From: Bacillota bacterium | Lineage (GTDB): Bacteria > Bacillota > Clostridia > Oscillospirales > Acutalibacteraceae | DNA: 64,000 nucleotides | NCBI GenBank assembly: GCA_021769885.1 | Contig: JAETSA010000009.1 | Location: 1 to 64,000, forward strand | Direction: 5' to 3' | Shown: positions 5,112 to 39,936 of the stretch, piece by piece | How positions within the stretch are numbered: position 1 is the stretch's first letter | Layout of the letters: the number at the start of each line of letters is the position of its first letter | Program-made: the position numbers and the translations under genes | Notes under the pieces: model-generated | The model's input: only the letters and a program-made list of their open reading frames with translations | Told to the model about the DNA's origin: nothing | Database searches by the model: none

Positions 5112-5800
5112 GTAGGGAACGACCTTAGTGTCGTTCCGCAGGATTTCATCTGATTTTAACGGGTGCGCAATGCACGCCCCTACGGGGTGGTGCATCATCG
5201 TTGGGGTTGTGTGAAATCTAACCTTGCTCGGGCGGGCGTGGAAACCCGCCCCTACAGTTGATGCGATGCGAATTGGATTTACGCGTAGGGACGGACATCC
5301 TTGTCCGTCCGCGGGCGAACACAGTTCGCCCCTACGGGGTTGCGTTTCGCTGTTCGGTTTGTGCAATTTCGAGCCGTGCTCGGGGCGCCGAGTCGTCGCC
5401 CCCCTACGGGTTGCGGTTCACCGTTTCGTTTGCGCAAATTTGCAACCGCGCTCGGGCGATTCGTGAATCGCCCCTACACGATTGGTGCGTTGTTATGCAC
5501 ACTGTAAGGACAGCCCTTGCGGCTGTCCGTTTCGGGCGAACGCAGTTCGCCCCTACGGGGTTGCGTTTCGCCGTTAGGTTTTTGCAGAATCCGACTGTGC
5601 TCGGGCGGATGAGGGCATCCGCCCCTACGGGGTTGCGTTTCGCCGTTGGGATTGTGCGAAATCCAACCGTGCTCGGGTGCTTCGTGAAGCGCCCCTACGA
5701 ATTGTGTATCACCGTTAGGTTTGTGCAATTTCGAGCCGTGCTCGGGGCGCCGAGTCGTCGCCCCCTACGGATTGCGGTTCACCGTTTCGTTTGCAAATAC
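5112..5800. repeat. Hairpin-word repeat array 2 (largest uniform array)
   Basis: About 690 bases without a gene. Units of roughly 80 bases alternate a short palindrome with a linker resembling GGTTGCGTTTCGCCGTT, then a stretch ending in CGTGCTC. In order the palindromes include GGGAACGA/TCGTTCC, GGGCGGG/CCCGCCC, GGGACGGAC/GTCCGTCC, GGGCGAAC/GTTCGCCC, GGGGCG/CGCCCC, GGGCGATTC/GAATCGCCC, GGACAGCC/GGCTGTCC, GGGCGGATG/CATCCGCCC and GGGTGCTTC/GAAGCGCCC. Most words appear again elsewhere. Long open frames cross the array but are by-products of its repeat length, not genes. Confidence 0.8.
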
Positions 5801-10655: not shown

Positions 10656-13600
10656 CTACAGCAACTGAATCACGTGGTCTTTCCCGTCGGGCGTAAAGCG
10701 TTCGGCGGGATTTTTGTCAATTTCCATACCGCCTGTGCGGACTTTGGGAACTTCCACTTGAATTTTTGCCCCCGAAAGATACATCGTAAACCGAAAATCG
10801 CCCCAGCTTTCGGGCGGATTCGGGGAAAAGGTATATGCTCCGTTTTGCTTTCGGATGCCCAATATCTCCTCCGCGACAAGCGCGTAAAAATGCCCTGCCG
10901 AGCCGGAATACAGACTCCAGCCGCCGCGCCCCTCTGCGCCCTTTGCGGCGTACACATCGCCGCAGAGGTAGTAGGGTTCTGTTAAATATTTTTCGGCAGT
11001 ATCTGCATTTTCATATTTTTCCAAAGGATTTAACAGGCGAAGCACCGCCGCAGCTTTATCCTTTTCACCGTTTCTAAACAGCGCGCGGCAAAACCACACC
11101 GCTGCGTGCGTGTACTGCCCGCCGTTTTCACGAATCCCCGCAGGGTACGCCGCCACATAGCCCGCCTTTTTATTTTTACCCGAAAACGCAGGTGCAAACA
11201 GGCGAACCACGCCGCTTTCGGTATCCAAAAGTGCCCCGTACGCCGTTTGCAGGGCGCGCGTGCGCCGCTCGCGGTTCAGATTCGAAAACACCGCGAAGCT
11301 TTGGGTCAGACTGTCGATTTTGCATTCTTCCGAATCGGGCGAGCCCATTTCTTCCCCGTCGTCATAATAGGCGCGCAGATAGCGGTCGCCTGCCCACGCG
11401 TACGATTCCACCGCAGTGCGCAAACGGGCGGCGGTTTCAAAATAAAAGGTGCTGTCCTTGCCGATAAACCGCAGCATTTCACCGAAGGACTCCAATACCA
11501 TCACGGCAAATTGCGAGAGCCAAACGCTTTCGCCCCTGCCCTTTGCACCGACGCCCGTAAAGCTATCGTTCCAATCGCCCGCGCCCATCAGCAGAAGTCC
11601 GTGCGCGCCGAACCGAAGTGCGCGGTGCACGGCACGTACGGCGTGCGTTTCTACACTGCCCTTTTCCTTGCCGCGCGGTACGTCAAAATAACGCTCTTTT
11701 TCGTGTTCGCCGAGCTCCTCCGCAGTGAGATATGCAATCTGCACATTTAAAATCGCCGTATCTCCCGTTGCGAGCACATATTTCGCGAGGGCAAACGGCA
11801 GCCATAACAGGTCGTCGCTGTACCGCGTGCGTACACCGTTAATTGTACCGTTTCGGTCAAGGGTCGGATGCCACCAGTGCAGGACGTCGCCCGCTTCAAA
11901 CTGCGCCGCACAGCATCGGAAAATCTGCCGCCGCAGAAATTCGGAATCGGCAACCAGCAAGCAGGCGGCATCTTGTAATTGGTCGCGGAAGCCGTATGCC
12001 CCGCCCGACTGGTAAAACCCCGTTCGGGCAAAAATTCTGCCGTTGATGATTTGATTGGGCAAAAATGCGTTGAACAGCGTGTTGAGATTCTTGTCAGGAG
12101 ACTCTAATACAATACGGTTTTCCGTCGGGAAGCGGCACGGTGGCAAGCTGAGCCCGCGCAAGGCGCGCACGCTTCGTTCCGTGTGCCCGAAGGACAGGAA
12201 AAAGTGCACGGTTTGCGCTTCGTGCGGGGAGAGCGAGACACGGCGGGTCAGGGCGGCACAGGGATTGCCGTTCGGAAGCGCACCGCCGCTGTCCCAAAGC
12301 CCCGCCCGAAAATCTGCGCGCGAAACCGTATAAAACACCTGTGCACCGCTGTCGGATTCCAATCGGAAAACGCCGGGAATTGCGGTATTGCAGGGATTTC
12401 GAACTTCAATGCCGCCGTCAAAAAACTGCGTATGCAAATAGACAGACGGCTTACCGTCCTCGGAAAGTGTGGGAACGGTAAAACAGCAAACCTCTGCCTG
12501 ACGGGGTGACTGCGTACACAGCGAAACGGCAATTTGCTTTTGCATGCCGCGTCGGGGCACGGTCACAGCGACTGAGATTTCGATATCTTCTACAGACGCC
12601 GTGTATTGCGCGCGCTCTTCCCCGAAACGAACGGTTGCATTTTTCAAGACGTCATAGACTTTGCCGTCTAAACGCAGAAACAGCCGTTCGCCGTCGTTGT
12701 CGAAAACCGTGTCGTTGGAAAACACCGTCAGCTTATTGAGCCGCGAATTGATTGCGTGGCTCACGCCGAGGGTGCTGTCGCCCGCAAGCGTCGAAAACGA
12801 CGGGTTTGCGAGGGCGTACACCCACGGCACACGGGGTTTCTTCTGAATTACATAGTCGGCGTACTCAATTTGATTGCTGCCGTTTTGCGGTACGTTTACA
12901 GGCAAAATCGACACAGCGTCCGCCGCATTTTCAGGCGGGAGCGGCGCGCTCGGCGTCTGCACCTCGGCGTTCGCCATAAGCGTGCGAAGCGCTGTATCTG
13001 TAAGTGTATCGGCGCAAAGATAATAAATACTGCCGAAGTGCGATTCATTTTGCGGACGGCTTTCTTTTTGAAGCAAAGCCTCCGCTGACGCACGTATAGA
13101 TGCAGTCCCCGCTTCGCCGCCTGCGCACAAAAGCACCAAATCGCAGGCAATCCCCGCCGCACGAAGCGTCGTGTAAAAACGCAAAATCGGCAGGAGCGTA
13201 TCAGAATCGGCAGTCACGCAGACGGAAACAAGCCACACGGGGCGGTCACCCGAAATCCCGAATTGCCACAGTGCCGTGCGCGGTGCTGTGTTTTCCCGCA
13301 GCGCCGAAAGCCGCTCCTTTGTAAGCGGCAACAGCCCGAACAGCGGCGGCAGTACCGATGCAATCGGCAATTCCGTATCCGAGAACAGACGCGGTGCGCC
13401 CGCAGGCAAAACCTCCGCCGTATCCATTTGCAACAGGGACATTCGTGTTTCCAAGGTATCGCGGTCACGCGCACAGCACAGGTAAACTGTCACGTCCTTT
13501 GTGCCGCCTTTCGGCAAATCCAACGGAATTTCCGCCAAAAAGCAGGTATCCGCAACAGCGGTTTGGTCACTTTCCCCGCAATCGGTTTTCCCGAGCGCAT

Positions 13601-16600
13601 ACACGCCCGAAAGCCTCGGGAGTGCCCTTGTGCGCGACAGCACGCAGGTATACGGCTGTTCGCCCGCAACGCCGCATCCCAAAAGCAGAGGTGTTTCCCC
13701 CGCCGCCGTGCGCCGTGTGAACACCGCGCCGCCGAATTTTGTGCGTTCGGCGGTCACGAACAGCTTCTGATAGGTTTTATGCGCCGTTTCGGCACGGGCG
13801 TCCGCAAGCGACGGCTCGAGATAGACCGTCAGCACGGCGCGGGTATTTTTCCCGCTTCGGTTTTCCACCGAAATGCGGTGCAGTTCGGCGGGGAGCTGAT
13901 TGTGCACAAGCACCGTCTGCGACAGCGTATAGTTTTCACTGCGCGCCCCGAAATGCACGCTGTTTTCCGAAAATGTGCAGGAAAATGATGTGTGTGCATC
14001 CGTTTGCAGAGCACGACAGCCGGGAAAGTATGCTCCGTTCGCACGCAATACGGCAAACACACCCAACGGATGTGTCCCGAGTTCGCGGCTCTCCCGCGTC
14101 AAATGCACGCCGCCGTACAGGCTGTGCGAAGTGCCGCAGTCCGAAACCACCGTGCTCCAAGTACCGTTTGAATACAACTGTACCTGCGGGGCAGTGCGGT
14201 TCGGCTCGTGCGGGATTTCAGCCGCGCACCGCATTTGTTCGGGACGGTCAGGCAGAATCTCCTGCATTTTGCGTTTGAATACAATCGGAACGGTCGGCAC
14301 GCGCTCCTCCAAAAGGGACGCGCCCGCACGCATACGCGCATTTCTCAAAAATCGTTTTTGCATAATTCCTCCAAGCAAAACATTGTCCACGGACAGCAGG
14401 CTCATTCCGATATGATGCGCCATAAAGCTGCGCACCACGCGGGGCGTTTTACCGTCCCGAAAATCCAGTGCTTCAAAAAATCCGTATTCGCCCGTGGCGT
14501 GCAGGCTTTCCAACGCTTCTAAATTGTGCAGGGCGGTTTTCGGCAGGAACGGCAATACCAAAAATGTGGAATACGGTGAAATCACAGTTTCATCCCACAC
14601 GCTTCGGCGCAGTGCCAGACGCGGCACACCGTGCGCACGGTATTGATAATTGCCCTCGGCATCAAAACGGTAGTAGCCGCTTTCCGACACGCCGAACGGC
14701 ACGCCGCGCCGATGCGCGAACACGCGCTGACAGTGCACGCAATAGCGCAATGCCTCGTAGGTAAGCGTGTTTTCACGGCTTTCCAAAAACAGATACGGCA
14801 TAAAATATTCAAACATCGTACCCGACCACGAAAGTGCGCCCGCATAGCCGTCGCACCCCGACAGCACGCGTGAAAGCGCGCTCCAATGGCTTTTCGGGAC
14901 TTGCCGCGCGGCACAGGCGAAATAGCTCATCATACGCGATTCGCTCATTAACAGGTCATAGTGCGCGGGCGTAAACGCTTGCTTTTCCAAATCGTAGCCG
15001 ATATAAAACAGGTCGCGGCGGCGGTCGTAAAGTGCACAAAGCTCCGCATTTTTCAGCTCACGGTCGATTTTTTCAATCACATTTTGTAAATCGGGGCGTT
15101 CGGGCAGATATTCCGAAACACCCTCGCGTAATGCACTCAGACAGCACAGGAAATTACCGCTGTCTACGGAGGACACGTATTGCGGTGCAAGGGGCAAAAG
15201 GGATTCGGTGTCGTACCAATTGTATAAATTGCCGTGCCAATGCGGGAGCGTTTCGACCGTCGAGAGCGTGCGCAGTAAAAAGTCACACAGCATTTTCGGC
15301 GTGATCAGGTAAAGGTCGCACGCCGCAAGTGCAGAACAAAGGCAAAGTCCGATGTTGGTCGGCGAAGTGCGGTGCGCCACACGTCCGACGGGTGCAGTCT
15401 GCACATTGTCGGGCGGCAAAAAATGATTTTGTGCGTTGCACTGCTCGGCATAGTATTTCCACATCGACGCACCATAGGAAATCAGCTTTTCCCGCTGTAC
15501 CCCGCGCACTTCGCGGCTTTTGTCCGAATACGGAAGCTCGGAAACCCACGAAAAAATCGGCTCTGCAAGAAAGAACAGCGCCAAAAGCCGCGGGAACGCC
15601 GAGCCGAACAGCAAAAGCCAAACCGCAGACAGCAAAGACGGCAAAGCAGAAAGGACTCTGCCGAGTACAGTCCCCGCGCGTTCGCTGTCGGCGGCGGTGA
15701 CCCATTCGAGCATATTGCGGTGTGTCAGGAATCTGCGCACAAAGCCCAATATAAGAGCACGCAGATTTGTATATGCCGTCACGGGCAGCAACAGTACCGA
15801 CACGGCACCGTCCGCAATCTGCCGCACCGCATCGGGTGCGGTCTTGCCGTAAAACCGCGTTTGCAGTGCGGAAATTCCGCCCCGAAACAGCACGGATAAA
15901 AACGAGAGCAGCTGCTCGCTCACAAGCGACAGAACAGCGATACACAGCATACTGCGTGCGGCCTCAGGCGAAAAAAACGGACTGCTTAAAATCAGTATCC
16001 AGGAAAAAATCGGGGTTGCCGCGCGGCGCAAATTGTCGAACAGCTTATATTTTGCCGTAAAGGAAAACGGATTTTTGCGCACGCCGTGCGACGTGTGCAA
16101 ATTTCTTCCCAACAACGCCGCATTTTGCATATCCCCGCGCACCCAGCGCCCCTGACGGGCAAAATAGGCGCGCGCACTTGACGGTACACCGTCGGATACC
16201 TGCACATCGGAAACAAATGCCGTGCGCAAAAGCTCCCCCTCGGGAATGTCATGGCTCAGAACTGTTTCTGCTTCGAATGCATCGGGTAACAGCTCCAAAT
16301 AGGCATCGATATGGATAAGCCCCTTGCCCGTGAACAACCCTGCGCCGAACAAATCCTGCCAACGCTCCGACACGCGCATATCATAGCCCGACACGCCGCC
16401 CGCACCCGCCATAATGCGCGAAAACCGCGTTTTATAAACGGAGTCCAGCGTGTTTTCGACGCGCGGCGCAAAAATGCCGTAGCCTTTTTGAACACAGCCT
16501 CGTTCGGTGTCGATTTGCGGGGCGTTTTCGGGATGCTCGGCAACGCACAGAAGCGTATACAGACAGTCGAGCGTTAAGCGCGTATCGCTGTCTAAGCAGA

Positions 16601-17882
16601 ACAGGTATTTTGCCGTCGGCAAAAGCGTGCACGCACCGTGCTGTACCGAAAACGGCGCGGTGTCGCCCGTACGCAGATACTTTACAAAATCGTTGATTGC
16701 ACCGCGTTTCCGCTCCCTGCCTGTAAAAATACGCCCCGTCGGCGACCACGTGCGTTCGCGCACAAACAAGGAAAACACATTCGGGCATTCTGCATTCAGC
16801 TCGTCAATCATCGCCTTTGCCGCCGCGAGGTCGGCACTGTCCTCCGGGCAGACGACGCTGTTCGCGCCCTTGAGGTCCGCCAACAGGCAAACCGAGATAC
16901 TCCCCTCGCCTGCGCGCAGATAGGTGTCGAGCAGACGGGCTTTTGTATCTGCCAGCTGTTTTGCACGCGGCAATAAGGCGGATACTGTAATGACGGTATG
17001 CGCCGAAGCGGGAATCTTGCCGCGCAAATCGGCGGCGGGCAGGACAAACGGCGGTACGCCGCACAAGAACAGGCGTTCTAAAATACTGCGGAACACCGCC
17101 CACAACGGGAAATACGACAAAACCGCAGGTAAAAAATCACCTTGCAGGAAGCCCAAAGCGACCGCACCGACAAGCGGCAGCAGTATTTCACAACAAAGCA
17201 AGATGCGTCCGCACACCCGATAGGACGGCAAAAGCAAGTCATACAGAGTGGTGTTTTTTCGCCGTGCTTCCTCCAACAGAAAATAGATTGCGGATTCTTC
17301 GGGGATATTTGCCTTTTGGGCATAGCTTGCCAGCCGACTGCGGTACAGCGCGCGCGTCGGGGCATCTGCGCAGGCAAAGCCCCTGTCGCGGCAAAGCAAC
17401 GCTTCTGTTTCACTGCATACGGAAAACAGCTCCTGAAACGGCAAATCCGAAAGTGTGAAAAGCGACTGTACCGCGTTTGACAGCAAGGTTTGCGACCGCG
17501 TATGAATCGCATTTGCCGCCGCCGACAGAAACACCGTTTTCAAAAGCAGTTCTGTGAGCGTCAGCTCCGCGATGGTGAATTTTGCCTCCTGACACGCCGT
17601 ACAAACCGCGGCAAACGACGGCAGTGTACCGTCCGTACAAAGCGCCGCGAGCACGCTGTACGCACGCGGAAAACCATCCGTGCCGCTCGGCAGATTCGGC
17701 GCATGCCGCACCGCGTCAAGTGCCGCACGCCCCTCCGTTTCCAAGCGAAAATAGGCTGACGTCAGCGTGTCGGCAAATTCTTCGCCGTGCACCCCCGACA
17801 AATGCCGATATGCGCGCTCCGCCGTTTTTAAATCTGCCTGCAGCTCCCGCTTCCATTTTTTTACTGCCGCGTTCTGCATCAT
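10656..17882 (-). CDS. Cyclic beta-1,2-glucan synthase-like protein (GT84-GH94, NdvB type)
   Basis: Giant membrane protein of 2408 residues from the ATG at 17882, which follows GAGGTG; a GTG seven codons earlier lies before that site. Order: an N-terminal helical region with membrane segments near 230-280; a GT84-type glycosyltransferase with DSDTRL near 431, then a DIPEGELLRTAF segment and RQGRWVRGD; further membrane segments; a central glucoamylase-like region (near 840-1100); two beta-sandwich regions; and a C-terminal GH94 phosphorylase barrel with GAGDWNDSF near 2100, holding the general-acid Asp. The known family polymerises UDP-glucose into a beta-1,2 chain, trims it by phosphorolysis and cyclises it for export. 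Product identity here is inference. No export or modification genes are adjacent. Confidence 0.85.
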   Translation of the reverse strand: MMQNAAVKKWKRELQADLKTAERAYRHLSGVHGEEFADTLTSAYFRLETEGRAALDAVRHAPNLPSGTDGFPRAYSVLAALCTDGTLPSFAAVCTACQEAKFTIAELTLTELLLKTVFLSAAANAIHTRSQTLLSNAVQSLFTLSDLPFQELFSVCSETEALLCRDRGFACADAPTRALYRSRLASYAQKANIPEESAIYFLLEEARRKNTTLYDLLLPSYRVCGRILLCCEILLPLVGAVALGFLQGDFLPAVLSYFPLWAVFRSILERLFLCGVPPFVLPAADLRGKIPASAHTVITVSALLPRAKQLADTKARLLDTYLRAGEGSISVCLLADLKGANSVVCPEDSADLAAAKAMIDELNAECPNVFSLFVRERTWSPTGRIFTGRERKRGAINDFVKYLRTGDTAPFSVQHGACTLLPTAKYLFCLDSDTRLTLDCLYTLLCVAEHPENAPQIDTERGCVQKGYGIFAPRVENTLDSVYKTRFSRIMAGAGGVSGYDMRVSERWQDLFGAGLFTGKGLIHIDAYLELLPDAFEAETVLSHDIPEGELLRTAFVSDVQVSDGVPSSARAYFARQGRWVRGDMQNAALLGRNLHTSHGVRKNPFSFTAKYKLFDNLRRAATPIFSWILILSSPFFSPEAARSMLCIAVLSLVSEQLLSFLSVLFRGGISALQTRFYGKTAPDAVRQIADGAVSVLLLPVTAYTNLRALILGFVRRFLTHRNMLEWVTAADSERAGTVLGRVLSALPSLLSAVWLLLFGSAFPRLLALFFLAEPIFSWVSELPYSDKSREVRGVQREKLISYGASMWKYYAEQCNAQNHFLPPDNVQTAPVGRVAHRTSPTNIGLCLCSALAACDLYLITPKMLCDFLLRTLSTVETLPHWHGNLYNWYDTESLLPLAPQYVSSVDSGNFLCCLSALREGVSEYLPERPDLQNVIEKIDRELKNAELCALYDRRRDLFYIGYDLEKQAFTPAHYDLLMSESRMMSYFACAARQVPKSHWSALSRVLSGCDGYAGALSWSGTMFEYFMPYLFLESRENTLTYEALRYCVHCQRVFAHRRGVPFGVSESGYYRFDAEGNYQYRAHGVPRLALRRSVWDETVISPYSTFLVLPFLPKTALHNLEALESLHATGEYGFFEALDFRDGKTPRVVRSFMAHHIGMSLLSVDNVLLGGIMQKRFLRNARMRAGASLLEERVPTVPIVFKRKMQEILPDRPEQMRCAAEIPHEPNRTAPQVQLYSNGTWSTVVSDCGTSHSLYGGVHLTRESRELGTHPLGVFAVLRANGAYFPGCRALQTDAHTSFSCTFSENSVHFGARSENYTLSQTVLVHNQLPAELHRISVENRSGKNTRAVLTVYLEPSLADARAETAHKTYQKLFVTAERTKFGGAVFTRRTAAGETPLLLGCGVAGEQPYTCVLSRTRALPRLSGVYALGKTDCGESDQTAVADTCFLAEIPLDLPKGGTKDVTVYLCCARDRDTLETRMSLLQMDTAEVLPAGAPRLFSDTELPIASVLPPLFGLLPLTKERLSALRENTAPRTALWQFGISGDRPVWLVSVCVTADSDTLLPILRFYTTLRAAGIACDLVLLCAGGEAGTASIRASAEALLQKESRPQNESHFGSIYYLCADTLTDTALRTLMANAEVQTPSAPLPPENAADAVSILPVNVPQNGSNQIEYADYVIQKKPRVPWVYALANPSFSTLAGDSTLGVSHAINSRLNKLTVFSNDTVFDNDGERLFLRLDGKVYDVLKNATVRFGEERAQYTASVEDIEISVAVTVPRRGMQKQIAVSLCTQSPRQAEVCCFTVPTLSEDGKPSVYLHTQFFDGGIEVRNPCNTAIPGVFRLESDSGAQVFYTVSRADFRAGLWDSGGALPNGNPCAALTRRVSLSPHEAQTVHFFLSFGHTERSVRALRGLSLPPCRFPTENRIVLESPDKNLNTLFNAFLPNQIINGRIFARTGFYQSGGAYGFRDQLQDAACLLVADSEFLRRQIFRCCAAQFEAGDVLHWWHPTLDRNGTINGVRTRYSDDLLWLPFALAKYVLATGDTAILNVQIAYLTAEELGEHEKERYFDVPRGKEKGSVETHAVRAVHRALRFGAHGLLLMGAGDWNDSFTGVGAKGRGESVWLSQFAVMVLESFGEMLRFIGKDSTFYFETAARLRTAVESYAWAGDRYLRAYYDDGEEMGSPDSEECKIDSLTQSFAVFSNLNRERRTRALQTAYGALLDTESGVVRLFAPAFSGKNKKAGYVAAYPAGIRENGGQYTHAAVWFCRALFRNGEKDKAAAVLRLLNPLEKYENADTAEKYLTEPYYLCGDVYAAKGAEGRGGWSLYSGSAGHFYALVAEEILGIRKQNGAYTFSPNPPESWGDFRFTMYLSGAKIQVEVPKVRTGGMEIDKNPAERFTPDGKDHVIQLL

Positions 17883-17922
17883 TTTTTTCACCTCAAAAAA
17901 CACTTGTGCTTTATTTTTCCCG

Positions 17923-25218: not shown

Positions 25219-25470
25219 TCCTTGTCCGTCCGCGGGCGCGCAATGCGCGCCCCTACGAGGTTGGCGCATCATCGTTGGGTTTGTGCAAAATCCGACCCGC
25301 AGAAGTCTGCAAAAAGCCCTACGGAACGACACTAAGGTCGTTCCCTACGCCCGCCCGAGCAAGTGAAAAATCTGCACAATCAAGCGACGAATCACCAACT
25401 CGTAGGGACAGCCCTCGCGGCTGTCCGTTTCGCGAGCGGTGCGCGCAATCGTCCCTAAGTATTCTGCGCG
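25219..25470. repeat. Hairpin-word repeat array 3
   Basis: Words GGGCGCGCA/TGCGCGCCC, GGAACGAC/GTCGTTCC and GGACAGCC/GGCTGTCC with the standard linkers. No gene is supported. Confidence 0.7.
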
Positions 25471-28470: not shown

Positions 28471-28532
28471 CTGTATTTGGAGTATGCGGGAGTTTGTCGC
28501 GAGAGGGCGGATGTACACAAAATTGTCATTCT

Positions 28533-29210
28533 GCGGCGCGGGCAAGCCCGCGCCGCAGAATATCACACCGCACAGGGTAAATTTAATGATTTGTAGGGAA
28601 CGACCTCTGTGTCGTTCCACAAAATCTGCACAAAATAAATTTAATCCGCAAATCGTAGGGACAGCCCTCGCGGCTGTCCGTTTTTCCCACAGCACAAGGT
28701 TTAATGGATTCGCAAATCGTAGGGGTCGCTGTTCTCGCCTGCCGGCTCGGTCAGCGCTTCTAAGCTTCGCTTAGAGGTGTCCACTGGACACCCGCACTCT
28801 CAGCGACCCGCGGGCGAACACTGTGCGCGCCCCTACGGGGTTTGCGCATCACCGTCTTGTTGTACAGATTTCGGCGGGCGGATGAGGGCATCCGCCCCTA
28901 CGGGTTGCGGTTTACCGTTGGGTTTGTGTGAACTCTGACCGTGCTCGGGCGATTCGTGAATCGCCCCTACAGGCGTAGGGAACGACCTTAAGTGTCGTTC
29001 CGTAGGGTTTTTGCAAATCCGACCATGCTTGGGCGGGCGTGGAAACCCGCCCCTACGAGGTTGGTGTGTCCCCGTTGATTTGTTCTAATTTCGCAGGCGC
29101 GCAATGCGTGTCCCTACGGGTGGCGCATCACCGTTGGGATTGTGCGAAATTCGACCGTGCGCGGGGCGCCGAGGTCGTCGCCCCCTACGAGTTGTGTACC
29201 ACCATTTGGT
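28533..29210. repeat. Hairpin-word array 4 with a nested type A cassette
   Basis: About 680 bases without genes. Words include GCGGCGCGGG/CCCGCGCCGC, GGAACGAC, GGACAGCC, GGGCGGATG, GGGCGATTC, GGGCGGG and GGGGCG. At 28722-28810 an outer GGGTCGCTG/CAGCGACCC stem encloses a type A cassette with inner stems TCTAAGC/GCTTAGA and GGTGTCC/GGACACC. Confidence 0.75.
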
Positions 29211-30902: not shown

Positions 30903-31178
30903 TAACCATAGCACACGCGTACGAACACGCCCAAAAGGCCTGCCTTGCGGGCACTTTTAAACTTATCGCCCTCGCAAGGCGTCAGCCTTGCTTCGCGCTC
31001 TGCGTCCAAAATTGCACCGCAATCCGTGCCTTTTGGGTCGCAGAATTTTCGAGTGCAGAATTTTTGACTCTGCGCGGCACAAAACGCAGTCAATCCTTTC
31101 GGATTGACGAGGATTTTAACAAAGCAGAGGCGGAAAGGCTGCCGCGAAAATCGTGTTCGGACGCGTGCGCTATGGTTA
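30903..31178. mobile_element. MITE-like element with 27-bp inverted ends
   Basis: Inverted ends 30903-30929 and 31152-31178 match at 25 of 27 positions; each begins TAACCATAGC and contains ACGCGT then CGAACACG. The 222-base interior has short palindromes (TCAATCC/GGATTGA, GCAAGG/CCTTGC) and no gene. The right end abuts the ribosome site of the lipoprotein gene at 31194. A related single end lies at 25757-25779, just upstream of the small protein at 25473-25736. No transposase or clear target duplication seen. Confidence 0.55.
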
Positions 31179-31193
31179 TACAGAGGACTCTAT

Positions 31194-31760
31194 ATGAAAA
31201 AAATTTTGAATAAAGGCTTGCTGTGCATCGGGGTCTGCCTGTTGCTTTTATGTCTGTGCAGCTGCCGAGGTGAAAAGACAGATGACCCGAGCAGCACTGC
31301 AGCGCCCTTCACGGTAGAAACACCACCAAGCACGACCGCGCCCGAAAGTACAGCCCCGCAAACGGCTGCGCCTGCCGCGCCTACGGAATCCACGACCGCC
31401 GCACCGCAGAAAAAAGGCGATATGATATTCACCGAGGACGCGAACGACCCGTTTATGCAGGCAATCGTGCAGAAATATAATGTTGACCCTGCACGGTTGG
31501 CGGGAATTTATATGTCCCCCGCAAGCGACAGCAATTATTTTTGGGAGTTTGACGGCACGACCGATGCCAACGGAAAGCTTGTGCGCAATGCGGACACCTT
31601 GAAATACGTCTACACTGTGACAGCAGACAGAAGCAAGATTTGCCGCACAGGCGGCCTTACCGGTAATGACGGGCTGACTGCCGCGCAAGGGTATGTGGTC
31701 TTTGAAACCAACAAACAGCTGATGGTGCCGAAATTTGAAGCCCGGCTTGCAGGGAATTGA
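31194..31760 (+). CDS. Small lipoprotein with Thr/Ala/Pro-rich linker
   Basis: The 188 residues start at the ATG at 31194, after AGAGGA; a longer frame runs into the MITE-like element. Signal peptide KKILNKGLLCIGVCLLLLCL with lipobox LCSC (Cys near residue 23). A low-complexity Thr/Ala/Ser/Pro linker (about residues 30-75) holds the C-terminal domain away from the membrane. That domain (residues 80-188) ends with a beta-rich segment (GYVVFETNKQLMVPKFEARL). I do not recognise it. The gene stands alone, followed by a repeat array. Confidence 0.8.
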   Translation: MKKILNKGLLCIGVCLLLLCLCSCRGEKTDDPSSTAAPFTVETPPSTTAPESTAPQTAAPAAPTESTTAAPQKKGDMIFTEDANDPFMQAIVQKYNVDPARLAGIYMSPASDSNYFWEFDGTTDANGKLVRNADTLKYVYTVTADRSKICRTGGLTGNDGLTAAQGYVVFETNKQLMVPKFEARLAGN

Positions 31761-31794
31761 ATACAGACGGAGGGAAAGACACGTAAGAGCAGAC

Positions 31795-32030
31795 TTTTTG
31801 GGCGATTTGTGAATCGCCCTACAAATGGTGTGCAAAATTTTGTCATTCCGAGCCGTCAGGCGAAGAATCTCCTTTTGTAGAGGCTTGTTCTGACAGATAT
31901 CCTTCGCTTTGCCCAGGATGACAGTGCGGGCTACGTGCAATCGCCCCTACGGGTTGCGGTTCACCGTTTCGTTTGTGTAAATTTGCAAGGTCGCTCGGGC
32001 GCTTCGTGAAGCGCCCCTACGGATTACGCC
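31795..32030. repeat. Hairpin-word repeat array 5
   Basis: Contains GGGCGATT/AATCGCCC and GGGCGCTTC/GAAGCGCCC words. Around 31845-31925 the sequence TGTCATTCCGAGCCGTCAGGCGAAGAATCT is another dispersed motif (its GAGC...GCGAAGAATCT part recurs at 36458 and 49167). Confidence 0.65.
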
Positions 32031-32076
32031 CCCCGAATTTTTTCAGGAAAAGAAAAAATAAACTTTTAATCAACGT

Positions 32077-32117
32077 AAAAACCCGCTCTCTCATTTTTTG
32101 AGGGAGCGGGGTTTTTG
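32077..32117. terminator. Bidirectional terminator after the ABC exporter operon
   Basis: AAAAACCCGCTC...GAGCGGGGTTTTT stem with T runs on both strands; it would end the minus-strand operon that stops at 32162. Confidence 0.85.
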
Positions 32118-32161
32118 TATGCTTTTTTCGTGTTTTTTACGCCTTTCGTGTCTTTTCCGTC

Positions 32162-34060
32162 TTACGACAATTCAAACTGTCCTGTATACAGCTGATAATA
32201 TTTGCCTTTTTGGGCAATCAAATCGTCGTGGTCGCCGCGTTCAATGATTTCACCGTGCTCCAGCACCATAATCGCATCCGCATTGCGAACGGTGGAAAGT
32301 CTGTGTGCAATGACAAATGTGGTTCTGCCCTGCATCAGCTTATCCATACCCTGTTCAATCAAATGCTCCGTGCGCGTGTCGATAGAGCTGGTTGCTTCGT
32401 CCAAAATCAGCACGGGCGGGTCGGCAACGGCGGCACGGGCAATCGCGAGCAGCTGGCGCTGTCCCTGGCTCAGGTTTGCGCCGTCACCGGTAATGACAGT
32501 GTCATAGCCGTTCGGAAGCCGCGTGATAAATTCGTGCGCGTTGGCAAGCTTTGCCGCCTCTACGATTTGTTCATCGGTCGCCTCCAAATTGCCGTAACGA
32601 ATATTTTCTGCGACCGTGCCTGTAAACAAGTGCGTATCCTGCAAAACCATTGCGAGGGAACGGCGCAAATCCGCTTTTTTGATTTTCTGAATATTAATGC
32701 CGTCATAGCGGATTTTACCCGACTGAATCTCATAGAATCGGTTCAAAAGATTGGTAATCGTGGTTTTGCCTGCGCCCGTAGAGCCGACAAACGCAATCTT
32801 CTGCCCGGGCTTTGCGTACAGGGAGATGTCGTTAAGCACGGTCTTTTTGCCGTCGTAGCTGAAAATCACATTTTCAAACTCCACATCGCCCTGCAGCCGC
32901 TGATAGGTGACAGACCCGTCGGCGGTGTGGGTGTGCTTCCAAGCCCAAACGCCTGTATGCTCAGCGCATTCGGTGAGTGTGCCGTCTGCATTCTCCCTCG
33001 CGTTGACAAGCTTGACATAGCCCGCATCGGTTTCCGGCTTTTGGTCAATAACGTCAAAAATGCGTTCCGCACCCGCGAGTGCAGATAAAATATTGTTAAA
33101 CTGCTGAGAAAGGTTGGTCAGCGGCTGCGTGAAGGAACGGCTGTACTGCAGGAACGAAAGCACCGTACCGACGGACATACTGCCGCCGATAGTGAACGCG
33201 CCGCCGACTGCCGCAAGCACGGCATAGGTCACGTGGGAGAAGTTGCCCATAATCGGCATCAATGCACTCGCAAAGGTATTTGCCTGTGTTGCGGAATGCT
33301 GTAATTCATCATTCAGCGCCGCAAATTCCTCCATAACCTTTTGCTCGTGATTAAAGACCTTAACAACCTTCTGCCCCTCTACGGTTTCTTCAATATACCC
33401 GTTTGCCGCACCGAGCGCGGTTTGCTGACGGCGGAAATATTTTGAGCTCTTCGAGCCCATTTTCTTAATAATCAACAGCATCACGGCGATGAACACAAGC
33501 ATAATTGCCGTTAGGCGGAGGCTCAGCACACACATCATCGCAAACGTACCGACAACGGATACAAGTGAGGAAATGGTCTGCACAAAGCCCTGGCTTAAAA
33601 AGTTGCGGACGGTATCCACATCGTTTGTGTAGCGGCTCATCAGCTCGCCGTGGGTATGGGTATCGAAATACGAAATCGGCAAATCCTGCATCGCGTCAAA
33701 CAAATCCTTGCGGATGGTGTTGACCGTGGACTGCGACAGCGTCAGCATAATGCGCGCATAGCCGTAAGACGCCAGTGCGCTGACCAGAAACAGACCGCCC
33801 ATTTTGGCAAGCATCACAATCAGCGGACCGAAATCCGCATTTTCTGCACCTGCGGCAATCATCGGCGTTAAGAAATCGTCGGTCAAAATCTTAATAAAGT
33901 AGGACGCGGAAAGCATACCCGCCGTACTTAAGAGAACCAACAGAACGACCAAAATCAAAAGCCATTTACGCCGCGCAAGATACCCCATTAAGCGGGATAC
34001 GGTCTTGCCTGTGTTTTTCGGCTTTTGGAACTTCATATTTTTTGCATGCGGTCCCGGCAT
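32162..34060 (-). CDS. ABC exporter subunit B (catalytic-Glu half)
   Basis: Fused membrane and ATPase domains, 632 residues. Six membrane helices in residues 30-330; an insertion of about 40 residues with TGVWAWKHTHTADGS links to the ATPase. Walker A VGSTGAGKTTI, signature NLSQGQRQLL (Gln in place of the second Gly) and Walker B VLILDEATSSID with the catalytic Glu. Its degenerate signature pairs with the Asp-bearing site of subunit A, so the consensus site is formed by this Walker motifs plus the LSGGQ-like motif of A, as in heterodimeric exporters such as BmrCD and LmrCD. TGATG overlap with subunit A. Probably a drug or lipid exporter. Confidence 0.92.
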   Translation of the reverse strand: MPGPHAKNMKFQKPKNTGKTVSRLMGYLARRKWLLILVVLLVLLSTAGMLSASYFIKILTDDFLTPMIAAGAENADFGPLIVMLAKMGGLFLVSALASYGYARIMLTLSQSTVNTIRKDLFDAMQDLPISYFDTHTHGELMSRYTNDVDTVRNFLSQGFVQTISSLVSVVGTFAMMCVLSLRLTAIMLVFIAVMLLIIKKMGSKSSKYFRRQQTALGAANGYIEETVEGQKVVKVFNHEQKVMEEFAALNDELQHSATQANTFASALMPIMGNFSHVTYAVLAAVGGAFTIGGSMSVGTVLSFLQYSRSFTQPLTNLSQQFNNILSALAGAERIFDVIDQKPETDAGYVKLVNARENADGTLTECAEHTGVWAWKHTHTADGSVTYQRLQGDVEFENVIFSYDGKKTVLNDISLYAKPGQKIAFVGSTGAGKTTITNLLNRFYEIQSGKIRYDGINIQKIKKADLRRSLAMVLQDTHLFTGTVAENIRYGNLEATDEQIVEAAKLANAHEFITRLPNGYDTVITGDGANLSQGQRQLLAIARAAVADPPVLILDEATSSIDTRTEHLIEQGMDKLMQGRTTFVIAHRLSTVRNADAIMVLEHGEIIERGDHDDLIAQKGKYYQLYTGQFELS

Positions 34061-35802
34061 CAGTGCTCGCCTCCTTCTGAAACAGATCCCTTTTGCTGGG
34101 AGTAGTAAACCTCGCTGTAAATCGGACTGCGCTCGAGCAGTTCCTCGTGCGTGCCCATATCGGCGATTTTGCCGTTATCGAGCACGATGATTTTATCTGC
34201 ATCCTCCACAGAACTGATACGCTGGGCAATAATAATTTTCGTGGTATTCGGGATGTCGTTCTTGAACGCTTCGCGGATTTTGCTGTCGGTGAAGGTATCC
34301 ACCGCGCTGGTGGAATCGTCCAAAATCAGGATTTTCGGTTTCTTTAAAAGTGCGCGTGCAATGCAAAGACGCTGTTTTTGCCCGCCCGAAACATTCACGC
34401 CGCCCTGCCCGAGGTCGGTGTTGTAGCCGTCAGGGAAGGTGGAAATGAAATCGTGCGCCTGTGCGGATTTGCACGCGGCAACCAATTCCTCGTCGGTGGC
34501 GTTTTCATCGCCCCAACGCAGGTTTTCGGCAATCGTACCCGAAAACAGAACGTTATTTTGCAGAACCATACTCACCGATTCGCGCAGTTCTTCAATCGTA
34601 TAGTTTTTGACGTTGTGCCCGCTCACGAGCACTTCGCCCTCGGTTACGTCGTAAAGACGCGGAATGAGACTGACAAGCGTGGTTTTCGCACTGCCCGTAC
34701 CGCCGATGATGCCGATCGTTTCGCCCGAACGAATAGTGAAATCGGCGTGATCCACCACATTCTTTTCGCCGTCCTTATTATATTTAAAGGAAACATCGCG
34801 GAATACGATTTCGCCGTTTTTGACCTTTAATGCGGGGTCGGCAAGGTCGTCGTTGATGTCAGGGGTTTCATCCAGCACTTCCTGAATACGCGAAGCAGAC
34901 GCGCGCGACATCACGTACATCACAAACATCATCGCAACCATAACGACGGACATCAAAATCTGCATAATGTACTGCAAAATAGTTGCGAACGCGCCGATTT
35001 CCATTTCACCTGCCACAATGTAGGTGGAAGAAATATAAGAAATCGCAAGAATCGTGCCGAACATCGCAATCATCATCAGCGGCTGTGCGGTGACCATCAG
35101 CTTTTCTGCGGAAACCGCCGCCTGCATCAGTCGGTCGTTGGCATCTTTAAACTTTTTCTTCTCGTGGTCGCCGCGCACAAACGCCTTAACCACGCGAATG
35201 GCAATCAGATTTTCCTGCACGGATGCATTTAAACCGTCAAACATTTCAAACATTTTCTTGAAACGCTTCATCGCAATCGGTCCAAAGATAACCAAGGTCA
35301 CAAGAATCAGCGGAATCACGTACAAAAACACCTTGGAAACGCGTGCACTGATAGAAAAGCTCATAAACATCGCGCAAATAAATTGCAGCGGTGCACGGAA
35401 GAACATCCGCAGCATCATTTGGTACATATTCTGCACGGTGGTCACGTCGGTCGTCATACGTGTGACAAGCGAAGCGGTGCTGAATTTGTCAATATTGGCA
35501 AAGGAAAAGGTTTGTATATTTTTATACATCGCCTCGCGCACGCGCGCGCCCAAGCCCATACTTGCGACTGCCGCCAAGCGTGCCGCCAGCGCGCCGCACA
35601 ACAGCGACAGCCCTGCGAACATCACCATTTTGCCGCCCGTGACGAGCACATAGTGCATATCGCCGCCCGAAATGCCGATGTCAACAATCTTTCCCATATA
35701 CAGCGGAATCAGCAGTTCCAGTACGACTTCGCCGACCATTAAAAGCGGACAAATCACGGACTGAATCCAATAGGGCTTTGCGTATTTAATCAGTTTTCCC
35801 AT
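34060..35802 (-). CDS. ABC exporter subunit A (degenerate-site half)
   Basis: The 580 residues start at the ATG at 35802, after AGGAGGTGA; a GTG 12 bases earlier lies inside that site. Six membrane helices, then an ATPase with Walker A GGTGSAKTTL (Ala for the usual Gly), canonical signature VSGGQKQRL and Walker B ILILDDSTSAVD, where Asp replaces the catalytic Glu. It forms a heterodimer with the product of 32162-34060. The start overlaps the MarR gene by 17 bases. Confidence 0.92.
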   Translation of the reverse strand: MGKLIKYAKPYWIQSVICPLLMVGEVVLELLIPLYMGKIVDIGISGGDMHYVLVTGGKMVMFAGLSLLCGALAARLAAVASMGLGARVREAMYKNIQTFSFANIDKFSTASLVTRMTTDVTTVQNMYQMMLRMFFRAPLQFICAMFMSFSISARVSKVFLYVIPLILVTLVIFGPIAMKRFKKMFEMFDGLNASVQENLIAIRVVKAFVRGDHEKKKFKDANDRLMQAAVSAEKLMVTAQPLMMIAMFGTILAISYISSTYIVAGEMEIGAFATILQYIMQILMSVVMVAMMFVMYVMSRASASRIQEVLDETPDINDDLADPALKVKNGEIVFRDVSFKYNKDGEKNVVDHADFTIRSGETIGIIGGTGSAKTTLVSLIPRLYDVTEGEVLVSGHNVKNYTIEELRESVSMVLQNNVLFSGTIAENLRWGDENATDEELVAACKSAQAHDFISTFPDGYNTDLGQGGVNVSGGQKQRLCIARALLKKPKILILDDSTSAVDTFTDSKIREAFKNDIPNTTKIIIAQRISSVEDADKIIVLDNGKIADMGTHEELLERSPIYSEVYYSQQKGSVSEGGEH

Positions 35803-36295
35803 AACAAGGGTCACCTCCTGTACAAAATTCTTCTTTCATCATTTCTGTAAGCTCCTGCGCCTGCGGCAAATCCGCCGCGAGATTCCCGCAAAGGCGGGCA
35901 AGCATACTTTGCAGTGTTTCAAGCTCTGCCGTGGTAAAGCCTGCATAGAGCTTACGGTCAATTTCTTCAAAGCATTGGTGAATATAATCGCGCTGTGCCT
36001 TGCCTTTTTCGGTCAGCCGCACAAAATTACGCCGCAAATCCTCTGCGTCCGCCTCTTTTTCAATCAAACCGCTTTTCTGCATTCGCCGCAGGGATACGGC
36101 AACCGAAGCGGGCGAAACATTCAGCGTTTTGGCAAGCTCGTTTTGTGTGCAGACACCACGGTCTGCCAGTACGTCTAAAATCGGCGGCTGTCCGAAATAT
36201 ACCTCGCTGTCGCGCAGCGCGCGGTGCACGGTCAAGTGCCGTTCCCATTCCAGGTCGTGCAAAAGCTTCGAAAGCGTATGATATTGCTCTGTCAT
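35786..36295 (-). CDS. MarR family transcriptional regulator
   Basis: The 169 residues start at the ATG at 36295, 8 bases after AAGGGG. Winged helix: GVCTQNELAKTLNVSPASVAVSLRRMQKSGLIEKEADAEDLRRNFVRLTEKG, with flanking dimerisation helices. As first gene of the exporter operon it is expected to repress its own promoter and be released by a toxic ligand, as for MarR-controlled ABC drug exporters. A TTAACC/GATTAA element lies between the promoter and the start. Confidence 0.92.
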   Translation of the reverse strand: MTEQYHTLSKLLHDLEWERHLTVHRALRDSEVYFGQPPILDVLADRGVCTQNELAKTLNVSPASVAVSLRRMQKSGLIEKEADAEDLRRNFVRLTEKGKAQRDYIHQCFEEIDRKLYAGFTTAELETLQSMLARLCGNLAADLPQAQELTEMMKEEFCTGGDPCYGKTD

Positions 36296-36334
36296 TCCAA
36301 CGCCCCTTTCCACTTGATTCTTAAAAATAAATAT

Positions 36335-36382
36335 TTAACCGATTAACGAAGTAATTTTACGCGATTATTTTTTTATTGTCAA
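36335..36382 (-). promoter_or_regulatory. Promoter and candidate operator of the MarR/ABC operon
   Basis: On the minus strand TTGACA, 17 bases, TAAAAT (-10 at 36354-36359, -35 at 36377-36382). An imperfect palindrome TTAACCGATTAA at 36335-36346 lies just downstream of the -10 and is a candidate MarR site. Confidence 0.7.
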
Positions 36383-36483
36383 CAAAAAAGTTGTGAAATT
36401 TTTGTGAATGTTGTTAGAGGATTTTGTGGTGCCCTGGTGGGGTGCGCATAAGCCTGTCATTCTGAGCGAAGCGAAGAATCTCC

Positions 36484-36812
36484 ATCAGAGCAATGTAAAT
36501 TTGATTCGCAAATTGTAGGGGTCGCTGTTCTCGCCGCAGATTTGTGCAAAATCCAACTGCGCTCGGGCGATTCGTGAATCGCCCCTACAGGTGTAGGGAA
36601 CGACCGAAGACGCGTTCCGCGAGGGTTTTGCAAAATCCAGCCGTGCTCGGGCGGGCACGGAGACCCGCCCCTACGAAGTTTGCGCACCGCCGTTTGGGTT
36701 TGTGCGAAATCCGACTGTGCTCGGGCGGATGAGGTTACGGCTTCGCCATTACCCTTTTGTCTGCTTCGCAGACATTTCCCCTATTAGGGGAATCTTCATC
36801 CGCCCCTACGGT
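36484..36812. repeat. Hairpin-word array 6 with a nested type B cassette
   Basis: Words GGGCGATTC, GGAACGACC/GCGTTCC, GGGCGGGC and GGGCGGATG. The last word is split: GGGCGGATGA at 36723-36732 and TTCATCCGCCC at 36795-36805 enclose about 62 bases of type B cassette with stems TGTCTGC/GCAGACA and TCCCCTA/TAGGGGA. No gene in it. Confidence 0.75.
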
Positions 36813-36960
36813 GCCGATTTTTTGAAAAATTTTGAGATAATCAACATTTTCTTCCAAAGTGTTGCACGATATTGCGTGAAATCCCTGCCGCTTCAAACTA
36901 TTGGTGAAAGGCGCTTTCGAAACGGAGTCGTGCCGAGTCGTGCGATTCCGTGCATCAAAG

Positions 36961-36985
36961 GTATCTGTTCTTTTAAAACAGATAC
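36961..36985 (+). promoter_or_regulatory. Hairpin in the leader of the phage head operon
   Basis: Arms GTATCTGTT and AACAGATAC (9 bp) around CTTTTAA, ending 10 bases before the AAAAGGAG site of the first terminase gene. It may be an operator or leader stem. No clear promoter was found between the repeat array and this point. Confidence 0.4.
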
Positions 36986-37007
36986 GAAACAAAAAGGAGA
37001 TGTTTTT

Positions 37008-37496
37008 ATGAAAACCACGCTATCCCAAAAAGAAACGGCGTTTTGCCGTGCGTTTGTCCGCACCCGCAACGGGCGCGAGGCGGCGGCATCGGCGGGATTT
37101 TTGCTGTTTCCCGAAAAGGCGGCGCAAAAAATGCTTGCACAGACGGCGGTGCAGGAAAAAATTGCCGCGCTGGAAACAAAAGAAAATGCCACGCGTGCCG
37201 AGCTGCTCGCAGGCTATCGCCGATTGGCATTCGGCTCGGTTGCCGATGCGGTGCGTTTACTGCTCGCCGCTGAGACGGGCGAAGCACTCGACCCCGAAAC
37301 GCTGGATTTATTCTCGGTTTCGGAAATCAAGCGTCCGAAAGGCGGCGGGCTTGAAATCAAATTTTTCGACCGCCAAAAAGCCCTTGACAGGCTTGCGATG
37401 TTAGAGAGCGAAACTGCGGACGGCGCACTGCCGTTTTACCGCGCATTGGAGCGTTCTGCGGCGGCGATAACCGAGAGCGGGGGCGCGATTGGATGA
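37008..37496 (+). CDS. Phage terminase small subunit
   Basis: The 162 residues start at the ATG at 37008, after AAAAGGAG; the longer frame runs into the repeat array. The N-terminal helix-turn-helix (LSQKETAFCRAFVRTRNGREAAASAGF) and following helices (KAAQKMLAQTAVQEKIAALE) are the DNA-binding pattern of Terminase_2-type small subunits, which recognise the packaging site and load the large subunit. The C-terminal part has KRPKGGGLEIKFFDRQKALDRLAMLE, the usual oligomerisation/TerL-binding tail. ATGA overlap with terL. Confidence 0.85.
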   Translation: MKTTLSQKETAFCRAFVRTRNGREAAASAGFLLFPEKAAQKMLAQTAVQEKIAALETKENATRAELLAGYRRLAFGSVADAVRLLLAAETGEALDPETLDLFSVSEIKRPKGGGLEIKFFDRQKALDRLAMLESETADGALPFYRALERSAAAITESGGAIG

Positions 37497-38755: not shown

Positions 38756-39897
38756 TGGCAAAATCCCGAAAAAAACAAGATGCAGTCCCCGAAAATCCGC
38801 CCGTATTGGCAAGCGGCGGCGCGCCGTTTCGAGAGCCGTTCGGCGCACTCGGCACATACAGCGTTCCGCCTGCGCTTTGCGGGGATTTATACCGCACCCT
38901 GCGCGAGGCGATTCCCGTCATCAACGCGGGCATTTACAAGCTGATTCGCCTGACAGGCGGCTTTCAGGCGGTCTGCGCCGACAAGCGTTTTCAGCCGATT
39001 TTGGATGACTTCTGTCAAAACGTGCCCGCCGACAGCGGCAGTGTGTCCCTGCAAGGGTTTATTGACTGCTTTTTTGAACAGCTTTTGACCTACGGCACAG
39101 CGGTTGCGGAAATGGTGCCCGACAGCACGGGCAAAATCCGATACCTATACAACGCGCCGCACACGGCATACCGCCTGCGCCGCAGTAAATCTGACTTTCG
39201 CCGTCCCGAGGTACTGCCCGCCGACGATTTGACGGACACGCCCCTGCCGCATCAGGATAGGCTGGTTGTGTGCACCTTGGGTGCACAGCCCGGCGAGGTG
39301 TACGGGACTTCGCTTCTCAGCGGCTTACCGTTTGTAAGCTCGGTGCTTACAAAAATCTACAACGCCGTCGGGCAAAACTGGGAACGCGTGGGCAATGTGC
39401 GCTTCGCCGTAACCTATAAGCCGGGTGACGATATGGGCGGCAAGGCCTACGCCAAGGAACGTGCGATGCAGATTGCCTCTCAATGGAGCGAGGCGATGCG
39501 CAGTCGCGAAGTACGCGATTTTGTGGCGGTAGGCGATGTGGATATCAAGGTCATCGGTGCGGACAACCAAATCCTGGACAGCGAAGTGCCCGTGCGCCAA
39601 ATGCTCGAACAAATTGTTGCGAAGCTGTCGCTCCCACCGTATATGCTTGGGCTTTCGTGGTCCACAACCGAGCGTATGGCATCGGAGCAGGCGGACATTT
39701 TAACGACGGAATTGGAGCATTACCGCCGCGTGCTGACGCCTGTACTCGAAACGATTTGCCGCACGCATCTGCGTGCCTACGGCTATACGGGCAAAACCGA
39801 AATCGTGTGGGACGACATTCTCCTGCGCGACACGGTTGAGGATGCGACCGCCCGCCATTTGGACGCACAGACGCAAGAGATTCTTGAAAATTTATAA
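38752..39897 (+). CDS. Phage portal protein
   Basis: The 381 residues, coupled to terL. The start may be either of two adjacent ATGs (38752 or 38755) after AGGGAGGTGA. The PYMLGLSWSTTERMASEQADIL segment and the following helix with TICRTHLRAYG match the conserved C-terminal part of portal proteins, which form the dodecameric ring at the capsid vertex. The central region (YGTSLLSGLPFVSSVLTKIYNAV) fits the stem. Complete in length. Confidence 0.88.
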   Translation: MMAKSRKKQDAVPENPPVLASGGAPFREPFGALGTYSVPPALCGDLYRTLREAIPVINAGIYKLIRLTGGFQAVCADKRFQPILDDFCQNVPADSGSVSLQGFIDCFFEQLLTYGTAVAEMVPDSTGKIRYLYNAPHTAYRLRRSKSDFRRPEVLPADDLTDTPLPHQDRLVVCTLGAQPGEVYGTSLLSGLPFVSSVLTKIYNAVGQNWERVGNVRFAVTYKPGDDMGGKAYAKERAMQIASQWSEAMRSREVRDFVAVGDVDIKVIGADNQILDSEVPVRQMLEQIVAKLSLPPYMLGLSWSTTERMASEQADILTTELEHYRRVLTPVLETICRTHLRAYGYTGKTEIVWDDILLRDTVEDATARHLDAQTQEILENL

Positions 39898-39936
39898 TCA
39901 TTCAATCTTATACTCCACCCGAAAGGAGGAAACAAA

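Follow-up and report, generated by a model that had tools for sequence, protein, structure and literature searches.

What kind of sequence fills most intergenic gaps of the window analysed here (the whole stretch of DNA under study, 64,000 nucleotides in length), and what keeps the two arms of its hairpins complementary while their sequence differs from word to word? The initial annotation, made from the sequence alone, had described about fourteen gaps built from short palindromes that come from a small set of interchangeable words and are joined by a similar linker ending in GTGCTC, and had taken this to imply selection on the fold, a copying mechanism, or both. The words of the window were compared with those of a 442-kb sample of the same genome (the window and 20 further stretches), with other genomes of the genus, and with the genes of REP-associated tyrosine transposases (RAYTs).

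Tagged hairpins and their arrangement in the gaps

The gaps are filled with hairpin words, as claimed, and each word is directional, with a GTAG tag at one end, a feature that the initial annotation had missed. Using a finder that allows one mismatch only, 38 GTAG-tagged hairpins were detected in the window, all of them within 12 of the 14 listed gaps, which together comprise 4,467 bases; a looser finder gave 41 GTAG words, compared with 0-2 in 30 shuffles. The description as fourteen gaps holds for these 12, and in the other two (43660-43762 and 52840-53020) the finder returned no GTAG word and degenerate or interrupted copies were recognised by eye. In the 442-kb sample, a hairpin directly followed GTAG at 257 of 1658 GTAG sites, while five of six control 4-mers gave 1-7 hits in the same test and the sixth, GCTC, to which the common 3' tail GAGC is complementary, gave 58 out of 2829. 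GTAG was also by far the commonest 4-mer preceding hairpin arms (208 of 848 arm sides), and perfect hairpins (stem of at least 8) numbered 195, 97, 100, and 32 in four sampled contigs, as against 25, 18, 26, and 5 in a background of one Markov-1 shuffle per contig, an excess of about 4-8-fold. The repertoire is small, with 40 octamers in the sample and 36-38 copies of each of the top three, and the common words each have a characteristic loop. By a crude ORF model, 86 of 251 word centres in the sample fell within ORFs of at least 100 aa, which cover 83% of the bases. Three features of the GTAG REP superfamily were found, namely an unpaired GTAG abutting a short palindrome, a high copy number at mainly extragenic positions, and an association with RAYTs; the gaps hold GTAG-type REPs in BIME-like arrays, which are known in kind.

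In the array that begins at 5112, the tag (5112-5115) is followed by the word GGAACGAC-cttagt-GTCGTTCC at 5116-5137 (+ strand), and GGAACGAC also bounds the RAYT unit L010, described below, on either side. The word GGACGGACA-tcct-TGTCCGTCC at 5289-5310 (+), detected by the hairpin scan, has its counterpart in a GGACGGACG pair in the RAYT gene L222 on the same contig, and two bases from it, with the GTAG tags pointing outward, lies GGGCGAAC at 5313-5331 (-). Next come GGGCGATTC-ac-GAATCGCCC at 5454-5473 (-), present twice in the congener RAYT L067, and GGACAGCC with the degenerate tag GTAA at 5508-5528 (+), the same word as in the congener RAYT L066, followed by two words from the hairpin scan, GGGCGAAC at 5534-5552 (-) and GGGCGGATG at 5603-5624 (-). 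The array continues with GGGCGCTTC at 5675-5694 (-; one mismatch; hairpin scan) and GGGGCGACG at 5744-5765 (-), whose word GGGGCGACGA occurs twice in the RAYT L012 (C26:108104-108580); the stretches separating these head-to-tail words, 5625-5674 and 5695-5743 (both -), were recognised by linker/tail clustering as a shared linker, or tail. Elsewhere in the window, the hairpin scan placed GGGCGCTTC at 31997-32016 (-) and GGGCGATTC at 36565-36584 (-) and, together with the pair analysis, two head-to-tail GTAG words at 49350-49432 (-). Four GTAG words (GGAACGAC, GGGCGAAC, GGGGCGACGA, and GGGCGATTC) lie at 2035-2189, with strands mixed or not given, and further groups listed without strand comprise three words at 25234-25426, six and one split word (28723-28809) at 28597-29185, three at 40987-41101, two at 45987-46174, three at 56518-56634, and four at 60909-61163, the last including GGAACGAC and its variant GGAACAAC.

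The joining of words was analysed on 156 neighbour pairs from the sample that lie at most 150 bp apart, 71 being head-to-tail, 53 GTAG-outward (two of these are a single hairpin tagged at both ends), and 32 GTAG-inward. In a BIME, clustered REPs alternate in orientation and are joined by linkers; clusters are present here, but head-to-tail is the commonest of the three arrangements. Linkers of 35-65 nt were present in 42 head-to-tail pairs, and many of them resemble GAGCACGGTYGGATTTTGCACAAACCCAACGG...GTAG, the complement of the linker ending in GTGCTC, which bears out this part of the initial annotation. When the 46 bases behind 249 words were clustered, the largest cluster held 41 tails standing behind nine different octamers, a degree of similarity that random 46-mers hardly ever reached (4 of 31125 pairs). 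Words are exchangeable at a common linker, as had been proposed, yet linker and word are not fully independent, since tails were somewhat more alike behind equal words (3.7% of tail pairs at least 75% identical) than behind different ones (1.1%). Folded single-strand sites joined by spacers would also be found in an integron-like attC array, but head-to-tail spacers of mostly 35-65 nt are too short for genes, and the tag and the in-gene copies described below fit a RAYT; set aside on this anatomy, such an array has a practically negligible probability. The words could also have arisen by decay from a single family of DDE transposons or MITEs, as they are repeated, intergenic, and made of inverted repeats. 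However, no common full-length unit was seen, 40 octamer types share tag and fold, and the enzyme found with the same hairpins is a HUH transposase, so that this origin, too, was set aside on anatomy as barely plausible.

The paired base swap noted between GGAACGAC and GGAACAAC was recovered as 11 two-sided changes at pair 6, all of them paired. Among the near-copies of four intergenic words, 11, 23, 21, and 33 two-sided changes were paired and 0, 0, 9, and 1 unpaired, but the same near-copies also contained 20, 23, 29, and 28 one-sided breaks; the statement that arms differ but stay complementary holds for many changes and fails for these 20-29 breaks per word. In three of the four words the paired changes are concentrated at one or two positions, and the intergenic paired changes are probably a few founder variants. 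Owing to these founder variants and the one-sided breaks, the covariation argument rests on the words inside genes and not on the intergenic counts.

Some words are split by inserts. Two structured families, I1 (57-65 nt, 22 copies in the sample) and I2 (about 65-74 nt, 18 copies), occupy the loops of GTAG words whose stems are of several kinds, and in the window they lie at 28732-28800, 36732-36796, 41161-41229, 63579-63641, and 63723-63791. The first (+) is an I2 of 69 nt, whose final four bases may be part of the host loop, and it splits a GGGTCGCTG/CAGCGACCC word at the loop; the insert search also gave a GGGCGGATG word split by I1 at 36723-36805 (-) and, combined with the hairpin scan, another GGGCGGATG word with I1, then a GGGCGAAC word, at 63570-63690 (+). 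Around the insert, the arms still pair at no fewer than 7 of 9 positions in 19 of 22 copies of I1 and 13 of 18 copies of I2. Matches to I2 were present in 13 of 39 genus genomes (own genome included), where by eye they also lie in the loops of other hairpins, and in contig C33 of genome G007 they follow one another in tandem at steps of 63 bases.

At 31000-31180 lies a repeat, about 150-180 bp long, that includes GTCAATCC-tttc-GGATTGAC, with six copies in the sister genome G016 that are 80-95% alike and one at 80% in the sampled contigs of the own genome. Between words at 31830-31960, a stretch with GTCATTCCGAGCC...GAAGAATCTC resembles one in contig C21 near 139709 and is perhaps a further repeat family. 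Positions 10656-17903 hold an ORF of 2415 aa with glycosyl hydrolase 94 domains, and no tRNA genes were found in the window.

The arrays in related genomes

Two gaps, which contain 8 words (folD) and 6 words (second gap) in the window genome, were compared across the genus. A GG-type GTAG word was present in the 3' flank of folD in 9 of 29 other loci (28 of the flanks being at least 700 bp long), and none in the flank of the second gap in 29 other loci (24 flanks of at least 700 bp). The sister genome G016 had 21 tagged hairpins in 349 kb, as against 257 in 442 kb here. Given the few or absent words in congener gaps and in the sister, the arrays are much richer in this lineage and are probably recent in it. 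Only scattered short matches to G016 were found along 31000-50900 of the window, and no case of a word replaced by another at the same linker was seen in an orthologous gap, the sister having too few words.

These comparisons bear on the possibility that the words are RNA hairpins (terminators, attenuators, or mRNA stabilisers) kept for their fold, with mobility being secondary. The intergenic position of 38 out of 38 window words and the stems that are still paired in many copies would agree with it, but a one-sided GTAG tag is needless for terminators, the arrays are mixed, orthologous congener gaps have few or no words (9/29 and 0/29) where 8 and 6 are found here, and no Rfam family reached the gathering threshold within the window. 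We consider an RNA function of this kind quite improbable. Two Rfam matches to microRNA families at about 28525-28566 were far below gathering and were taken as chance.

Transposases and the words inside their genes

Four loci in the genome matched Pfam Y1_Tnp, and a search with an alignment of ten relatives gave nine matches, some of which are fragments. The NCBIfam model NF047646 'REP-associated tyrosine transposase' was the top family for 5/5 proteins tested, each below the cut-off, and phmmer yielded a match to 4er8 with an E-value of 8e-4. The predicted structure of the relative L124 (55-row alignment, pLDDT 85.8) had 4er8, the E. coli 'REP associates tyrosine transposase bound to a REP hairpin', as its best fold match in the PDB, and the proteins have the PxHxH motif and an IS200/IS605-type HUH fold; they are homologues of known RAYTs. 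Relatives with names came mostly from Clostridia and mostly from Bacillota, in a sampling that was thin for non-Bacillota RAYTs (four plasmid records plus the named loci L164 and L189). The contig that carries the window has three full-length RAYT matches: two of them share a 4.5-kb stretch with a remnant (C26:119443-123896), and the third is L012.

The ORFs of L009 and L012 each contain two copies of one GTAG word, in frame and mirrored, flanking the MPNHxH codons. A survey of 198 loci, taken from the own genome, the genus, the class, the phylum, and 80 named genome contigs, included 50 in which no intact frame was accepted, some of these being remnants or other Y1 transposases; 135 distinct genes were kept. 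A word was present at site 1 (5' of the HUH codons on the coding strand, mostly codons -40 to -47 from the motif) in 86 of 135 genes and at site 2 (3' of the HUH codons on the opposite strand, mostly codons +11 to +21) in 106 of 135, though the sample may lean to word-bearing genes, as the search alignment A1 was built after words had been seen in some of its ten rows. Both sites carried a word in 81 genes, one site only in 30, and neither in 24; words in the wrong orientation were found once at site 1 and twice at site 2, and synonymous-codon shuffles gave 1.1 genes (site 1) and 1.05 genes (site 2) with a word. If genes were picked by the tag alone, the hairpin was present in 86 of 94 at site 1 and in 106 of 114 at site 2. 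Among five plasmid RAYTs, one had in-gene words at both places and four had none inside the gene. The one with both is L372 of Monoglobus pectinilyticus; its words are GGGCGGAT, and its annotated CDS begins after the first of them. In the RAYT remnant L011 (G000 C26:121784-122331), the site 1 word GGGGCGATG/CATCGCCCC is broken by insert I2.

The two words of a gene vary in concert. Their arms were identical at both sites in 50 of 81 genes (49 by a stricter arm count), compared with a permuted mean of 2.9 and a maximum of 10 in 1000 permutations. As the two sites are read in opposite orientation, the same word encodes different peptides, and the word belongs to the gene rather than to the peptide. 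At pair 4 of the 22-nt words at site 1 (n = 53), A-T was found in 22, C-G in 16, G-C in 13, T-A in one, and an unpaired state in one, and because each base of this pair stands at the second position of its codon, loop residues 3 and 8 are replaced jointly (for example D..V, A..G, G..A, V..D). Site 2 likewise shows all four base pairs, and in a large class of words with a mismatch at pair 7 this mismatch is purine-purine in 71 of 71. Base-pair covariation within the ORF forces paired amino-acid changes.

Compensatory changes of this kind could also arise without selection, through template switching (quasipalindrome correction), with the in-gene copies, as inverted repeats about 170 bp apart, being homogenised in the same way. 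In the 32 genes that differ between sites by the stricter count, 26 pair differences were two-arm paired, 15 one-arm, and one other, and such an excess of two-arm over one-arm differences is expected if intermediates are short-lived. Template switching alone, however, leaves unexplained the GTAG tag and two results given below, the match between flank and in-gene words and the tracking of the RAYT tree by loop and mismatch type; we judge it an unlikely, though by no means trivial, explanation, and it is compatible with recognition of the words by RAYTs, so that both could hold.

Recognition by RAYTs was further examined in the flanks and phylogeny of the genes. In 22 of the 44 loci having both, a flank word was the same as the in-gene word (permuted mean 1.9, maximum 7), and in the other 22 loci no flank word equalled it. 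A flank word within 150 bp accompanied 20 of 24 genes without in-gene words and 17 of 77 genes with both (Fisher p 1e-7), and as an outside REP is common when in-gene words are absent, we read this as one inverted REP pair kept with the gene, either outside or inside. In loop and mismatch type, the words follow the RAYT tree: with the word-coded residues masked, word architecture required 20 changes on the tree compared with 62.8 after shuffling, a tree in which 44 of 132 inner branches were drawn open and on which near-copies alone would cluster the labels.

The RAYT genes and remnants of the own genome carry GGCGGGGG, GGGGCGAC, GGAACGAC, GGGCGCGC, GGACGGAC, GGGACGAT, and GGGCGAAC, and congener RAYTs carry GGGCGATT, GGACAGCC, and GGGTCGGC among others. 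Of the 257 sampled words (RAYT-internal copies included), 109 share an octamer with an own RAYT gene or remnant, and own and congener RAYT octamers together account for 162; the remaining 95 had no matching octamer among the RAYTs sampled. For GGGCGCTT (18 copies) and GGGCGGAT (15 copies), 33 words in total, no RAYT with either word was found in the genus sample.

The RAYT unit L010 (621 bp, C14:5792-6412) is bounded by two GGAACGAC words with GTAG outermost and is absent from the sister G016, which at this site beside ispG has 28 bp of other sequence, including CCCTAC, between the aligned blocks, so that the element may instead have been lost there. By tblastn, no RAYT was found beside ispG in 29 other congener loci (of 38 congeners with ispG), and the 3' flanks of these 29, all at least 700 bp long, had no GG-type words. 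The presence and absence of L010 is suggestive of one case of RAYT mobility. The RAYT downstream of gyrB was considered as an orthologue series, as a RAYT or remnant is also present in G040 and G003, but the G040 protein is only about 36% identical to L012 and the series was rejected.

Word and enzyme in the light of known REPs

In the reading we prefer, with a probability of roughly 0.78, the gaps are GTAG REPs in BIME-like arrays whose words are recognised by RAYTs, a word pair inside the gene is inherited with the enzyme, and new words spread. Each word would act as a single-stranded hairpin that a REP-associated HUH tyrosine transposase (RAYT/TnpA-REP) recognises by its 5' GTAG tag and its fold. 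Many RAYT lineages would exist in the genus, each with its own word, and the 'alphabet' of the window would be the sum of the words left by the present and past RAYTs of this genome. The inverted REP pair that elsewhere flanks the RAYT gene would here lie mostly inside it, in one loop before and one loop behind the HUH codons, whereby enzyme and substrate would be inherited together; a change of word would hit both arms and both sites, overriding the protein sequence, and the changed word would then spread between genes. Judging from sequence, the RAYTs of this genome may cleave these words, build the arrays, and exchange words at linkers that stay in place. The order of events sketched for a change of word is likewise putative, and the in-gene pair may be kept either for linkage or for autoregulation. 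The alternatives named at the outset (a selected fold, copying, or the two together) fit these data, as the covariation of stems extends to coding sequence and the genome has a family of enzymes likely to do the copying.

Somewhat more tentatively, at a little under even odds, the RAYT genes of this clade may carry a heritable coding REP pair, that is, one word placed twice and mirrored in two loops of the ORF as a master copy coupling enzyme and substrate. The word would be kept as DNA while the peptides differ between sites and genes, so that hairpin recognition would drive paired amino-acid change, and each orthoswitch would take place inside the ORF, seeding a new word family. With an in-gene word, the cognate word of a RAYT becomes predictable from sequence alone and can be compared with the repeat population of the genome, which bears on how REPs and domesticated transposases stay matched and on how a RAYT changes its word. 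DNA secondary structure here seems, in a clear example from nature, to impose coupled amino-acid changes on an ORF, and residues coupled by a hairpin in this way are a trap for protein coevolution analysis.

The initial annotation knew of no described family with this build, but REPs that carry a GTAG tag, have alternative complementary stems, and form dimers and clusters with conserved spacers have been described (Di Nocera et al. 2013, PMC3733652). It had also named two findings that would speak against its reading, membership in a known REP family, which holds, and arm changes that do not covary beyond chance, which does not. As far as the consulted part of PMC3733652 goes, its GTAG REPs and BIMEs are like the present words in having stems of about 8-10 bp with short loops and an unpaired GTAG at one end, complementary alternatives among the stem residues, dimers, clusters, conserved spacers, an intergenic place, and a link to RAYTs. 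In contrast, the phyla given there for GTAG repeats omit Bacillota, the home of most named relatives here, and the present arrays differ in having head-to-tail pairs as the commonest type (71/156), one linker common to words with different stems and loops, and structured inserts of 57-74 nt in the loops of several stems.

According to Quentin et al. (2018, PMC6006769), REPs occur in frame within genes of TnpA-REP subclass 2.4 (RAYT group 4), generally between HuH and Y and as peripheral loops. Site 2 (106/135) matches this placement, a likeness in REP position, and in-frame REPs as such are already published. Unlike in subclass 2.4 as described there, a second mirrored copy lies 5' of HuH, the two copies mostly agree in their word, and variation of this word comes with paired non-synonymous changes. 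Neither an identical second copy in mirror orientation nor paired replacement of amino acids was found mentioned in the passages of that paper covered here or in the portions of PMC3733652, PMC8266576, PMC2817692, PMC3686654, and PMC3116915 that were covered; the mirrored concerted pair is the part for which no mention was found in these sources.

With the E. coli TnpA-REP (4er8; Corneloup et al. 2021, PMC8266576, covered in part) the RAYTs here share the fold, the HUH motif, and the GTAG tag, and the conserved mismatches of E. coli REPs are comparable to the large word class with a conserved purine-purine mismatch at pair 7. Our finder gave no word in or next to rayT of E. coli K-12, a weak control as it misses the bulged E. 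coli REPs. The same paper, in the part covered, states that there is no evidence of tnpA-REP mobility. A related process is the orthoswitch, in which the REPs flanking orthologous RAYTs change (Nunvar et al. 2013, PMC3686654, likewise covered in part): in both cases REPs linked to a RAYT are altered and the altered form rises in copy number within the genome, but here the changing REPs lie within the reading frame, and the change is visible as a paired amino-acid replacement.
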